Positions 3,459 through 29,265 of a DNA stretch of 55,917 bases are shown here, in pieces. Below the pieces are notes generated by a model, which was not told the origin of the DNA, ran no database searches, and saw only the letters and a list, made by a program, of their open reading frames with translations. Both the position numbers and the translations under genes were made by a program. This DNA is from an uncultured beta proteobacterium (GTDB lineage: Bacteria > Pseudomonadota > Gammaproteobacteria > Burkholderiales > Burkholderiaceae_C), in assembly GCA_903822205.1 (NCBI GenBank), contig CAIJOK010000113.1, forward strand, positions 1 through 55,917. Reading direction: 5' to 3'. The number at the start of each line of letters is the position of its first letter. The first letter of the stretch is position 1.

Positions 3459-4598
3459 TCATGAAGCCGATCGTCGCGCCAACACGGCGTTGGACCAGTC
3501 TTCAAGCGGCTGCAGGGACTCATCCCATCCCAGACAGGCATCGGTGATGCTTAGGCCATAAACCAATTGGTCTGGCGATGTTTTGCCCGGGGTAAATTTT
3601 TGGGCACCGGCGTTCAGGTGGCTTTCAACCATCACGCCAAAAATCTGGCGCGACCCGCCTGCCACTTGCGTGGCAATGTCGCGTGCCACATCCAACTGCC
3701 GCTGATGCTGCTTGCTGCTGTTGGCATGGCTACAGTCCACCATCAGACTGGGGTGCAGTTTGAACCGTGACAGCTCTGCGCAGGCGGCGGCCACGCTGGC
3801 TGCGTCATAGTTGGGGGCTTTGCCGCCGCGCAAGATCACGTGGCAGTCGGGGTTGCCACGGGTTTGGACGATGGCCACCTGGCCGTGCTTGTTCACCGAC
3901 AAAAAGTGGTGTCCGCCGGCAGCCGCATGAATGGCATCGGTGGCGATCTGGATGTTGCCGTCGGTACCATTTTTAAAGCCTATCGGCGCTGACAGACCGG
4001 ATGCCAGCTCACGGTGAACTTGGCTCTCCGTGGTGCGCGCACCGATGGCCCCCCACGAGATCAAATCGCCCAAGTATTGGGGCGAGATCACGTCCAAAAA
4101 CTCGCTGGCGGCCGGCAGCCCCAGACGGTTGATGTCGATGAGCAATTGACGCGCCACCCGCAGGCCTTCGTCGATCTTGAAGGAATTGTCCAGATAGGGG
4201 TCGTTGATCAGCCCCTTCCAGCCCACGGTGGTGCGGGGTTTTTCAAAATAGACGCGCATCACGATCTCAAGGGTATCGGCGTAGCGGGTGCGCTGCTGCA
4301 CCAGCCGCCTGGCATATTCAAGGGCGGCTGCGGGGTCATGGATGGAGCACGGCCCCATGATGACCAACAAGCGGTCGTCCTGGCCCGTCAAGATGTTGTG
4401 GATGCGGCTGCGGGTGGCGCTGATCATCTGCTCGGTGGCCGTTCCTGCTATCGGAAAGAACCGGATCAAGTGCTCAGGCGGCGGCAAAACGGCGATGCTT
4501 TTGATGCGCAGGTTGTCGGTTTGACCGGTGCGGTCTGCGGCGGGGTCAGCGGGGGCGGACAGCCCGTCGGGTACAAGGTGAGAGGATTTGGCGGGCAT
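3459..4598 (-). CDS. aroG: 3-deoxy-7-phosphoheptulonate (DAHP) synthase, class I
   Basis: Catalyses condensation of phosphoenolpyruvate with erythrose 4-phosphate, the committed step of the shikimate pathway in the cytosol. The 379-residue product has the family landmarks GPCSIHDP, KPRTTVGWKGL, GARTTESQVHREL, GFKNGTDG and MVDCSHANS. Which of AroF/AroG/AroH it equals, and hence its feedback inhibitor, cannot be told from sequence alone. I use the ATG at 4598 because AGGA lies just upstream and the protein then begins like its relatives. The open frame continues to 4700 but that part is the leader repeat and hairpin. The gene is monocistronic, with no minus-strand gene upstream. Any promoter must lie before the hairpin at 4615-4645, so transcription has to pass it, which suggests attenuation control. 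Confidence 0.95.
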   Translation of the reverse strand: MPAKSSHLVPDGLSAPADPAADRTGQTDNLRIKSIAVLPPPEHLIRFFPIAGTATEQMISATRSRIHNILTGQDDRLLVIMGPCSIHDPAAALEYARRLVQQRTRYADTLEIVMRVYFEKPRTTVGWKGLINDPYLDNSFKIDEGLRVARQLLIDINRLGLPAASEFLDVISPQYLGDLISWGAIGARTTESQVHRELASGLSAPIGFKNGTDGNIQIATDAIHAAAGGHHFLSVNKHGQVAIVQTRGNPDCHVILRGGKAPNYDAASVAAACAELSRFKLHPSLMVDCSHANSSKQHQRQLDVARDIATQVAGGSRQIFGVMVESHLNAGAQKFTPGKTSPDQLVYGLSITDACLGWDESLQPLEDWSNAVLARRSAS

Positions 4599-4614
4599 AA
4601 GGGGAAGTCCTAAC

Positions 4615-4645
4615 AAAAAAACCGCAGGGAACACCGGCGGTTTTT
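4615..4645 (-). terminator. Terminator-like hairpin in the aroG leader (candidate attenuator)
   Basis: Read on the minus strand, AAAAACCGC (4645-4637) pairs with GCGGTTTTT (ending near 4617), a 9 bp perfect stem. Two more G-C pairs are possible in the 11 nt loop, and a run of seven T follows. This is the geometry of an intrinsic terminator, placed 17 nt before the aroG ATG and 11 nt after the stop codon of a Trp/Phe-rich leader ORF. On the plus strand only five T follow, so it would work better in the aroG direction. Confidence 0.7.
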
Positions 4646-4656
4646 GGGGGATGGGG

Positions 4657-4731
4657 TCACGGTGGAAACCATGGAAACCATGGAAACCATGGGCATCCAA
4701 GCACCGCTACAGGTACTGGAACCCAAAACAT
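4657..4731 (-). CDS. Candidate Trp/Phe leader peptide of aroG
   Basis: A 24-codon ORF: ATG at 4731, TGA at 4659-4657. It begins MFWVPVP and its last eleven residues read PWFPWFPWFPP, giving four Trp and four Phe in 24 residues. The repeat is an exact 9 bp DNA array. Each UGGUUU can pair with AAACCG at the 5' arm of the following terminator hairpin (one G-U pair), which would make a weak antiterminator. Known leader peptides of phe, trp and corynebacterial DAHP synthase operons work by ribosome stalling at such codons. The ribosome binding site before this ATG is poor (GGTG only). Translation and function are inferred; the frame could be chance because 9 bp arrays occur elsewhere in this window. 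Confidence 0.5.
   Translation of the reverse strand: MFWVPVPVAVLGCPWFPWFPWFPP
4666..4692. repeat. 9 bp tandem repeat, three copies, in the aroG leader
   Basis: AAACCATGG occurs three times without mismatch at 4666, 4675 and 4684. On the minus strand it supplies the Trp-Phe-Pro codons of the leader ORF. CCATGG is itself palindromic, so copies can also pair with one another in RNA. Confidence 0.9.
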
Positions 4732-4913
4732 GACGCAACACCATGGCGCATGAATGTAGCACAGACCCTGTGTTGTGAGGGCAAAACTGGCATGGCAAGC
4801 GCAGCGCCAGGCAGTTGGCGCTGCCCCACAGCACCGGCACACTGCGGCCCTGCCCCAACAAAAGTGTCGGTTGGGACACCACGCAACACCTGATGATCGA
4901 GGGCGATAACCTT

Positions 4914-4943
4914 GAAGTATTCAAAGTAGTCAAAGTATTCAAA
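4914..4943. repeat. 9 bp tandem repeat, three copies, upstream of the aroG leader
   Basis: GAAGTATTC, AAAGTAGTC and AAAGTATTC follow one another with period 9. On the minus strand one frame reads FEYFDYFEYF, rich in Phe and Tyr. That frame opens only with TTG at 4973 and has no visible ribosome binding site. It lies about 180 bp upstream of the Trp/Phe leader. Confidence 0.7.
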
Positions 4944-4983
4944 TTTTTCGATATGTACGACAAAAAAATGCAATTACGTGAGA

Positions 4984-5016
4984 ATTAAGTGCAAATTAAG
5001 TGCAAATTAAGTGCGA
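4984..5016. repeat. 11 bp tandem repeat, three copies
   Basis: ATTAAGTGCAA occurs at 4984 and 4995 and once more with one change at 5006. It lies in the gap between the divergent aroG and ATPase genes. No coding role is apparent. Confidence 0.85.
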
Positions 5017-5454
5017 ATTCAATTTAGGCCGAATCTATTAATTTTTCAAACAAATGGCAGTGCCCGTTGGTATGGAGAGGCGATTCTTGCGACAGATATC
5101 ATGAACGCAACAACCATCACGCGACGTACCGGATACCTTGAACGCAACAAAAATTTGATGCCGTGTGATGCCATGTGTCCCAAGCTCTATTTGCCAAACT
5201 CTAGTCATCTGGTGACTGCCAAGCGTCAAAAGCACCATGGGATAAGCTGGTCTGAGCATGGACTCTATGCGCTAACCTCACTCCATGCGCTCACAGGCAA
5301 TGATTCAGCACGAAAATGGCTGCAAAATCGCAGTTTTAACCTTACTTGGGCAGCAAAAGCGGCTGAGTCAATCGTACGGGGCGGCGGTTTCGCTGATGAT
5401 GATTTTTCGCGTCTTTTGTACTTGCGTTTCATTTCGACTGGCGTTTATGGTTAA
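5011..5454 (+). CDS. Doubtful ORF, possible decayed transposase C-terminus
   Basis: An open frame of 147 codons with no good ribosome binding site and no clear family. Residues 70-110 contain AKRQKHHGISWSEHGLYAL. This recalls the C-terminal pattern of some transposases, in which a basic stretch is followed by G-x-x-W-S and an Ala/Leu-rich helix. The resemblance is from memory of family style and is weak. The surrounding 800 bp between aroG and the ATPase gene (4740-5483) contains tandem repeats and no better gene candidate, which fits decayed accessory DNA. Confidence 0.22.
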   Translation: MRIQFRPNLLIFQTNGSARWYGEAILATDIMNATTITRRTGYLERNKNLMPCDAMCPKLYLPNSSHLVTAKRQKHHGISWSEHGLYALTSLHALTGNDSARKWLQNRSFNLTWAAKAAESIVRGGGFADDDFSRLLYLRFISTGVYG

Positions 5455-16324: not shown

Positions 16325-16394
16325 CGCTTGTCACCGTATGTCACCGTATGTAACCACTTATCACCATTTGTCACTATTTGTCACCATTTGTCAC
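16325..16394. repeat. Seven tandem decamers filling the fliL-fliM gap
   Basis: The consensus on the plus strand is CATTTGTCAC. Seven units run at exactly 10 bp from 16325 to 16394 with scattered changes (CGCTTGTCAC, CGTATGTCAC twice-like, CACTTATCAC, TATTTGTCAC). The last unit contains the fliL stop codon. The 10 bp phase places every unit on nearly the same face of the helix. It is not a CRISPR: units and spacing are too short. Confidence 0.93.
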
Positions 16395-22372: not shown

Positions 22373-22542
22373 GGCGCGATCGTCCGGTTAAATTGTAAAA
22401 AAGTTATTGACGCTATCTGTATGGCCTGACAGGGCATCATAGCCCGTCAATACTGCATATAAAGCATGCATTCAGGTTGATAAATTGTATAAAACTTATT
22501 ACTGTTTATGACTCTTTATGACTCTTTATGACTGTTTGCATG
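22373..22542 (-). promoter_or_regulatory. Long fliF-fliG gap with shared 14-mer and hairpin
   Basis: This is one of only two long gaps inside the operon. It contains AATAAGTTTTATAC (22500-22487 on the minus strand), identical to a site in the fliP-fliQ gap. It also holds a GGGC-TATGAT-GCCC hairpin near 22430-22445 and AT-rich sequence before the fliG ATG. An internal promoter or processing site is plausible; I could not define good -35/-10 boxes. Confidence 0.35.
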
Positions 22543-28828: not shown

Positions 28829-29265
28829 TTATGCTGTCATGCAAATCATAAAGAGTTCTTTCCAAGAGAAGCTCTTTTCAAGAATTTCGAGTGCAAATGA
28901 CGGAACTTTGATTGAAGTGAAATAATTCCGGTTGAAGTTATGTATCACCCAAAATACATCCAGTGTTCTTTGAAGTCCATTCTCGTGTTCCGCATAGGTG
29001 TTTGTACCTCGCAAAAGGCTAAATTCTGACGGCACAGATCGCTATTGAAAGCTTCGCAGTGATTGGCATGGATATCTTTGTTGATAATATCCAGAACGGT
29101 TTACGGATGTTTTGCGAGCGGTGCTGGGTATTTTAGGGCGTTTAGGACGTTTAGGACGTTTAGGACGTTTAAGACCTCTTTGATGATGAAGTTCCAAAAG
29201 GAACCGGCTCGCCCTGTACATGGGTTCGTGGCAAGTTGTTCATAATAACGCTTGTTTTGCTTCAT
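28829..29265 (-). pseudogene. Decayed transposase, C-terminal remnant
   Basis: Reading left from 29265, one frame gives MKQNKRYYEQLATNP, later FWNFIIKEV, a VLN repeat (three perfect copies and a fourth altered one), KYPAPLAKHP, an in-frame stop near 29103, and DIHANHCEAFNSDL. A frameshift near 29010 then leads to RGTNTYAEHENGLQRTLDVF and HNFNRNYFTSIKVPSFALEI, ending at 28829. The run DIHANH-EA-N, TNTYA, GLQRTLD and HNF is the C-terminal signature of a family of DDE-type transposases I recognise by pattern but cannot name securely. One stop, one frameshift and an internal 9 bp array mark it as dead. The N-terminal part is missing or unrecognisable. Confidence 0.6.
29136..29171. repeat. 9 bp tandem repeat inside the decayed transposase
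   Basis: GGGCGTTTA is followed by three perfect GGACGTTTA units at period 9. On the minus strand it encodes repeated Val-Leu-Asn in the remnant's frame, so the array keeps the codon phase. Confidence 0.9.

Follow-up and report, generated by a model that had tools for sequence, protein, structure and literature searches.

The aroG gene of many Burkholderiales is preceded by a conserved leader which is predicted to be a ribosome-mediated attenuator and whose peptide probably senses the shortage of Phe, Tyr and Trp. A copy of this element lies upstream of aroG in the window (the whole stretch of DNA analysed, 55,917 nt), where the promoter element, the family-spaced start codon, the terminator and a weakened antiterminator are retained and the run of aromatic codons is lost. 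This copy most likely no longer senses aromatic amino acids, a reading that is given somewhat better than an even chance. The conserved leader is the larger result: if it works as predicted, joint sensing of Phe, Tyr and Trp by one peptide, with an almost leaderless start, controls the first step of aromatic synthesis in a large bacterial group.

Parts of the aroG leader in the window

The features of the leader are presented in Table 1. The product of aroG matched the TIGR00034 profile with 528.9 bits (cut-off 173.2), in agreement with its earlier naming as a DAHP synthase, and was the only DAHP synthase match in the window genome (G000) at E 1e-20. Direct reading of the minus strand reproduced the positions of the ORF, the hairpin and the T-run given by the original prediction, including the leader stop codon 11 nt ahead of a 9 bp stem. 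The gap between the end of the T-run and the aroG ATG (4598) was 16 nt instead of the 17 nt first given. The stem is formed by AAAAACCGC (4645-4637) and GCGGTTTTT (4625-4617), and the full T-run of seven T (4621-4615) is retained. The terminator has the ACCGCC...GGCGG-T(n) form of the family, except that its 3' arm carries TGCGG instead of GGCGG, and its hairpin energy was -12.6 kcal/mol compared with -18.5 kcal/mol for the hairpin of L012. The aroG hairpin was not flagged by a consensus terminator scanner with a loop limit of 8, nor was the promoter element by a sigma-70 consensus scan, which requires a -35 element.

Table 1. Features of the aroG leader and non-ORF tandem arrays of the window genome (G000).
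Feature	Position	Strand	Basis or remark
aroG, class I DAHP synthase	3459..4598	-	profile search
Extended -10-like promoter element TGCTACATT	4753..4761	-	kept in family; alignment A1; start site predicted
ORF from family-spaced ATG, MVLRHVLGSSTCSGAWMPMVSMVSMVSTVTPSPKNRRCSLRFFC	4610..4744	-	ATG 8 nt past hexamer
24-codon ORF MFWVPVPVAVLGCPWFPWFPWFPP	ATG 4731 to TGA 4657	-	direct reading
Hairpin 1:2, predicted antiterminator competitor	4724-4712 with 4705-4691	-	folding
Segment 2, GCGGU, remnant of family GGCGG antiterminator	4703..4707	-	folding
9-bp tandem array ATGGTTTCC x3.3, WFP in MFW frame	4663..4692	-	between segments 2 and 3
Spacer stem GGAUG 4698-4694 with CAUCC 4653-4649	4649..4698	-	encloses array in predicted antiterminator fold
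Predicted intrinsic terminator, segments 3:4, AAAAACCGC / GCGGUUUUU, 7 T	4615..4645	-	folding
Non-ORF arrays, window	4663-4692, 4915-4943, 4972-5019, 16328-16394, 22496-22537, 29132-29175		
Non-ORF arrays, other loci of G000	L204 777-813; L206 5104-5131		

The frame of the 4744 start codon contains a single aromatic codon (Trp) ahead of the terminator. It reads MVLRHVLGSSTCSGAW..., in which SSTCSG corresponds to SSxCGG of the family and no aromatic codon stands ahead of the switch. In the 4731 ORF, Phe2-Trp3 are located at the switch point and the PWF codons past it. The frame of a further ATG at 4751, MRHGVASCFGFQYL, which stops at segment 2, was set aside: this ATG begins 1 nt past the -10 hexamer and is therefore upstream of any start which that hexamer could give. 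Hairpin 1:2 was predicted at -17.0 kcal/mol (z -2.8; 4 of 200 shuffles were equally good), and at the matching position a UUCUC/GAGAG hairpin is present in the family model. On the plus strand the array reads TGGAAACCA, with 3.3 copies and 100% matches.

The leader family upstream of aroG in Burkholderiales

The aroG set comprised 110 loci with upstream DNA, the named genomes being the best 80 of at least 591. Three loci with 34 nt or less upstream were left out, which resulted in 107 loci, the window and 106 relatives. A leader ORF with aromatic codons followed by the terminator pattern was detected in 86 of these 106 relatives. A typical leader has a Phe/Tyr/Trp run, often FYFxYFWF, and then a CCGCC...GGCGG-T(n) terminator. 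The pattern was absent from 20 of the 106 relatives among the listed matches, where other forms of terminator would escape it; these include three Polynucleobacter, two Cupriavidus, three Methylotenera, Rhodocyclus and its kin, and two gamma-proteobacteria. The leader of Burkholderia is MSAKFYFYFFWxLxPLADREG, and that of the genus of the window typically MKSxxFYFSYFWFSSxxGGREF. In this genus, aroG was matched at E 1e-140 or better in 77 of 90 genomes. Upstream DNA was obtained from 76 genomes, of which 73 were readable, and 67 of the 73 had the aromatic-run leader with its terminator. The remaining six, without an intact leader, were the window genome, G064, G072, G088, G104 and G106. G009 belongs to the 67 with a run and is divergent (MKCQDFFFRFFYFSLAARRRRD). 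A variant leader in L042 (1288-1426) has the run YHFWHFHIQH, with His codons among the aromatic ones, and only four aromatic codons ahead of the terminator.

A covariance model (R1; 145 positions) was built from 27 intact leaders with the window excluded. At E 0.01, matches were obtained in 22 of 100 genomes from the order, and all the 20 matched loci that were fetched, the window included, were upstream of aroG and had leaders with aromatic codons. A more specific DNA pattern run over 399 genomes of the family matched 4 of them and was too strict to be useful. No Rfam family was matched by six intact loci, and the window between 3000 and 5600 gave four matches only, all far below the curated threshold.

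The putative switch was studied by placing a ribosome at every codon in turn and folding the free RNA downstream of it to where the 5' arm of the terminator ends. The 127 relatives' leaders with a called peptide include that of G104, whose aromatic run is lost. The mean antiterminator probability over the aromatic run was at least 0.9 in 118 of the 127, the probability at the stop codon was at most 0.25 in 107, and the drop in antitermination followed the last aromatic codon by 1-2 codons in 105. With six intact leaders, the on-off shape was obtained in 0-2 of 500 shuffles. The antiterminator motif GGCGG is kept although its reading frame differs among leaders, with 89, 32 and 3 of 124 in the three frames, so that the RNA and not the peptide seems to be conserved there; L042 and L161 are without GGCGG. 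Pairing with the terminator arm involves the base 5' of GGCGG in 111 of 124 leaders and the next base in only 76 of 124. The pair adjoining GGCGG covaries between groups defined within the analysis: it is C-G in 78 of 100 Comamonadaceae-type leaders, T-A in 11 of 15 leaders of Burkholderia and others, and T-A in three and A-T in two of nine Oxalobacteraceae-type leaders. RNAalifold on the family alignment returned the terminator only and no covariation, since the terminator stem is almost invariant in that set and covariation shows only between families. In 61 leaders with a length of 22 residues, the variation of the aromatic codons is mostly synonymous or a Phe/Tyr exchange.

The leader ATG lies 6-8 nt past a TACATT-like hexamer in 98 of the 127 relatives (the hexamer was not found in 29), and the leader mRNA is therefore probably leaderless or nearly so. 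The leader peptide encoded by such an mRNA would have about 22 residues and contain the Phe/Tyr/Trp run. When charged tRNA is lacking, the ribosome would be held on the run, GGCGG would remain exposed and capture the CCGCC arm of the terminator, and aroG would be transcribed. A ribosome running on would cover GGCGG, and the terminator would form. Folding with no ribosome went against the antiterminator in three leaders (L008, L012, L020), but not in L031 or L080. Once completed, the terminator prevails at equilibrium in almost all states; the model therefore requires the antiterminator to form earlier, as is the case with other attenuators.

E. coli trpL and pheL are ribosome-mediated trp and phe attenuators, and E. 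coli aroF, aroG and aroH are controlled by TyrR and TrpR. As predicted, the family shares with trpL and pheL a leader peptide with control codons, the hairpins 1:2, 2:3 and 3:4, and an intrinsic terminator ahead of a biosynthetic gene. It differs from them in that the gene is that of the first-step DAHP synthase and that Phe, Tyr and Trp codons are mixed in the run; in addition, the control run is lost from the window copy. By its modelled mechanism the family would be an ordinary ribosome-mediated attenuator, of which the window copy is probably a decayed member. Attenuators in proteobacteria were reportedly predicted by comparative genomics by Vitreschak et al. in 2004, and both the approach and the kind of element are alike. 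A literature search of open-licence papers returned no description of an aroG attenuator in Burkholderiales, and the available part of a survey of premature terminators (PMC2965389) makes no mention of aroG. In Sinorhizobium meliloti, the trpL attenuator RNA begins directly with the AUG of its leader ORF (PMC7298713). The spacing of ATG and hexamer, where the latter is recognised, suggests a similar leaderless start in the present family, the starts being placed from sequence; gene, bacterial class and codons are different in the S. meliloti system.

Divergence of the window copy and leader loss in the genus

R1 aligned with 4760-4615 of the window over positions 1-145 of 145 (37.3 bits, E 1.6e-4), and this locus was the sole match in its genome at E 0.01. 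As judged by sequence, the window element as a whole is above chance. The run-less leaders of G106 and G104 scored 46.5 and 45.2 bits, respectively, both above the window. The scores of same-family leaders with a run were 60.6 (L042), 85.0 (G009), 130.2 (L003) and 151.3 bits (L027), and no match was obtained with G064, G072 and G088. Aromatic-run leaders from other families of the order scored down to 36.1 bits (L197-L199), so the low score of the window proves little alone.

The Phe/Tyr/Trp run upstream of segment 2 is absent from the window: at most Phe2-Trp3 remain in the 4731 frame, aligned with the F-W codons of the family, and none in the 4744 frame, the Phe-Trp codons that are left not being in phase with the family-spaced start codon. 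The larger of two alignments shows a net deletion of about 14 nt in the window, which removes the stretch carrying FYFSY, whereas a second, small alignment places the window otherwise and without a deletion. As the two alignments disagree, it is uncertain which indels exactly separate the window from the family. A DNA search of the genus for window-like leaders gave leaders which, where read, were intact or that of G106, with no second PWF leader; a plasmid search found none.

The loss of the run recurs within the genus, in G104 together with G106, in G064, in G072 and in G088. Mapped onto the aroG tree, the odd genomes, seven with G009 added to the six without an intact leader, require five changes, three of which are forced by starred branches. 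The aroG branch of the window is long, 0.45 compared with a median of 0.089, and its placement in the tree is unsure. With 67 of 73 genomes carrying the run and six altered or lost leaders on several branches of the aroG tree, the genus is a natural series for studying the effects of attenuator decay. Long aroG branches of 0.35-0.51 (median 0.089) were observed for G000, G064, G009 and G088, whose leaders are altered, lost or divergent; counterexamples are G104, G106 and G072 with branches of 0.04-0.18, and L051 with a branch of 0.53 and an intact leader.

A single DAHP synthase match was found in G000, G064, G104 and G106, and also in G009, which is only 74% complete. Several matches were found in G010 (two) and G036 (three), and in the leader-less G072 (two) and G088 (three). 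G016, which is 100% complete, has one DAHP synthase and has kept the leader. The extra copies of the leader-less G072 and G088 and the single copy of G016 make the link between leader and copy number a loose one. The second match of G072, L177 (G072:C2:107245-108318), contains one in-frame TGA.

A Trp-rich ORF (MFIHRI...GAWPW) precedes trpE in G010 and G036 and is absent from the trpE gaps of G000 and G106. As a conserved ORF upstream of trpE, it is perhaps the trpE attenuator of the genus. A DNA pattern built from G010 and G036 was present in 50 of the 90 genomes of the genus, all six altered genomes being among those without it (P 0.006 on the assumption of independent genomes, which does not hold); the pattern was also missing in 34 of the other 84 genomes. 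The trpE gap of G000 (L203 700-774) contains a 24-codon GTG ORF, VSTYQSGDTKKWNWQKNQSQKMSP, with Trp-Asn-Trp, which is not related to the leader seen in G010 and G036. A simple scan, which misses the aroG terminator too, found no terminator in this gap. TACACTT-like DNA was observed ahead of the ATG of the MFIHRI..TG..DRGAW.W.. ORF (L201, L200).

Folding and readings of the window copy

The original prediction had placed an aromatic-codon attenuator upstream of aroG, with the PWF codons as the sensor and the UGGUUU copies as the antiterminator pairing with AAACCG. The first part stands insofar as the relatives' aroG has a predicted attenuator, to whose terminator the window hairpin is homologous, but the PWF design does not. 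The proposed alignment of the relatives' upstream regions showed that aromatic codons and terminator are indeed common; however, the aromatic run precedes the antiterminator there, and PWF was found in none of the 127 other leaders with a called peptide. It is true that the WFP units of the window are in frame and that a ribosome at codons 17-19 gave partial sequestration of 0.46-0.53, but this pairing is that of CACCG with CGGUG and not of UGGUUU. With the ribosome on the PWF codons, the antiterminator probability was 0.08-0.53 (0.08-0.10 on the first or third PWF), in contrast to the high means over the run in the relatives. Varying the footprint (10 or 16 nt) and the temperature (25-37 C) shifted the drop by about one codon and left the tested PWF codons at or below 0.55. 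The UGGUUU:AAACCG pairing had a probability of at most 0.03 at the seven ribosome positions tried, and the energy of the UGGUUU duplex was -4.2 kcal/mol versus -12.6 kcal/mol for the terminator. The PWF sensor with its UGGUUU antiterminator was accordingly rejected by the ribosome-blocked folding; given also how rich the genome is in arrays, this design is regarded as very improbable. Nor is the alternation of Phe and Trp, considered unusual at the outset, unique as such, since L055 (FYFWFWFS) alternates them in its run ahead of the antiterminator.

The RNA on-off switch is still predicted at Phe2/Trp3. With the ribosome held at codons 2, 3 and 4 of the 4731 frame, the antiterminator probabilities were 1.0, 0.99 and 0.96, and segment 2 pairs GCGGU with ACCGC (4641-4637); beyond, they fell to 0.74, 0.17 and 0.02 at codons 5, 6 and 7 (0.02-0.17 over codons 6-8). 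A minimal working attenuator with its start at 4731, in which Phe2 and Trp3 are sensed and the array is neutral or a structural spacer, would fit these values, the stop codon ahead of the terminator, and the full on-off shape, which was obtained in 3 of 500 shuffles. The 162-nt region also folds better than 200 of 200 shuffles (z -3.7), and the array is modelled to form its own hairpins inside the GGAUG/CAUCC stem, where it would act as a spacer in the fold. On the other hand, only two control codons stand ahead of the switch, the start, originally taken as the MFW leader start, is 21 nt past the -10 hexamer instead of the 6-8 nt of the relatives, and the relatives' trpE leader is absent from the window genome. 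The GCGGU:ACCGC helix has 5 bp and -8.8 kcal/mol, compared with -16.7 and -13.6 kcal/mol in two examples of the family. Shuffling of the spacer only kept the 'on' state of the window in 109 of 300 cases (171-299 of 300 for eight intact leaders), so the survival of this state in the window is no strong sign of selection. A working minimal attenuator is thus considered possible but unlikely. Slightly less credit still is given to the proposal that tandem duplication is rewiring the attenuator once the ancestral start frame was lost, the new 4731 ORF sensing Phe2-Trp3 and the TGGTTTCCA copies adding Trp/Phe codons and a spacer stem; the in-frame TGGTTTCCA copies differ by one base from TGGGTTCCA of the ORF itself at codons 3-5. 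Translation might instead begin at 4744, where the spacing matches the family, and a ribosome meeting no stop would cross the hairpin and leave aroG constitutively on. That frame is open to TAG 4612-4610, just ahead of aroG, and the frames of G106 and G104, in which the run was lost on another branch, are also open into the T-run. Openness as far as the terminator arm is nevertheless what chance would give, with 3183 of 5000 shuffles of the window and 3268 of 5000 of G106 showing it; the open frame was rejected as a proof of constitutive expression, and the reading is held to be improbable.

The window switch is most likely a relic or a deregulated attenuator. This is favoured because the loss recurs in the genus, the trpE leader is absent and the genome is rich in arrays; the on-off switch predicted at Phe2/Trp3, the full T-run and the Trp-Asn-Trp ORF in the trpE gap of G000 stand against it. 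In such a relic, the level of aroG would be set by read-through of the weakened terminator, and the PWF repeat would be a tandem-duplication product in the spacer, neither sensor nor antiterminator.

The early cautions about 9-bp arrays and a weak ribosome binding site were well placed. Sixteen arrays of period 7-15 were counted in 93 kb sampled of G000 and one in 197 kb of six same-genus relatives, the stretches being hand-chosen. Eight of the 16 lie outside ORFs of 100 aa or more, one of them in the trpE gap. A random 9-bp unit has at least two aromatic codons among its three with a chance of 3.3% in a given frame and 9.2% in any frame, so the PWF frame is mildly surprising and not more, and the PWF array alone is weakly above chance. 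The repeat is most likely a by-product of the short-repeat making of the window genome; an eye-catching repeat of control codons can be a product of tandem duplication. Two of the non-ORF arrays in Table 1, AAGTATTCA x3.2 and AATTAAGTGCA x4.4 at 4915-5019 of the window, are found upstream of the aroG promoter element at a distance of about 150-270 nt.
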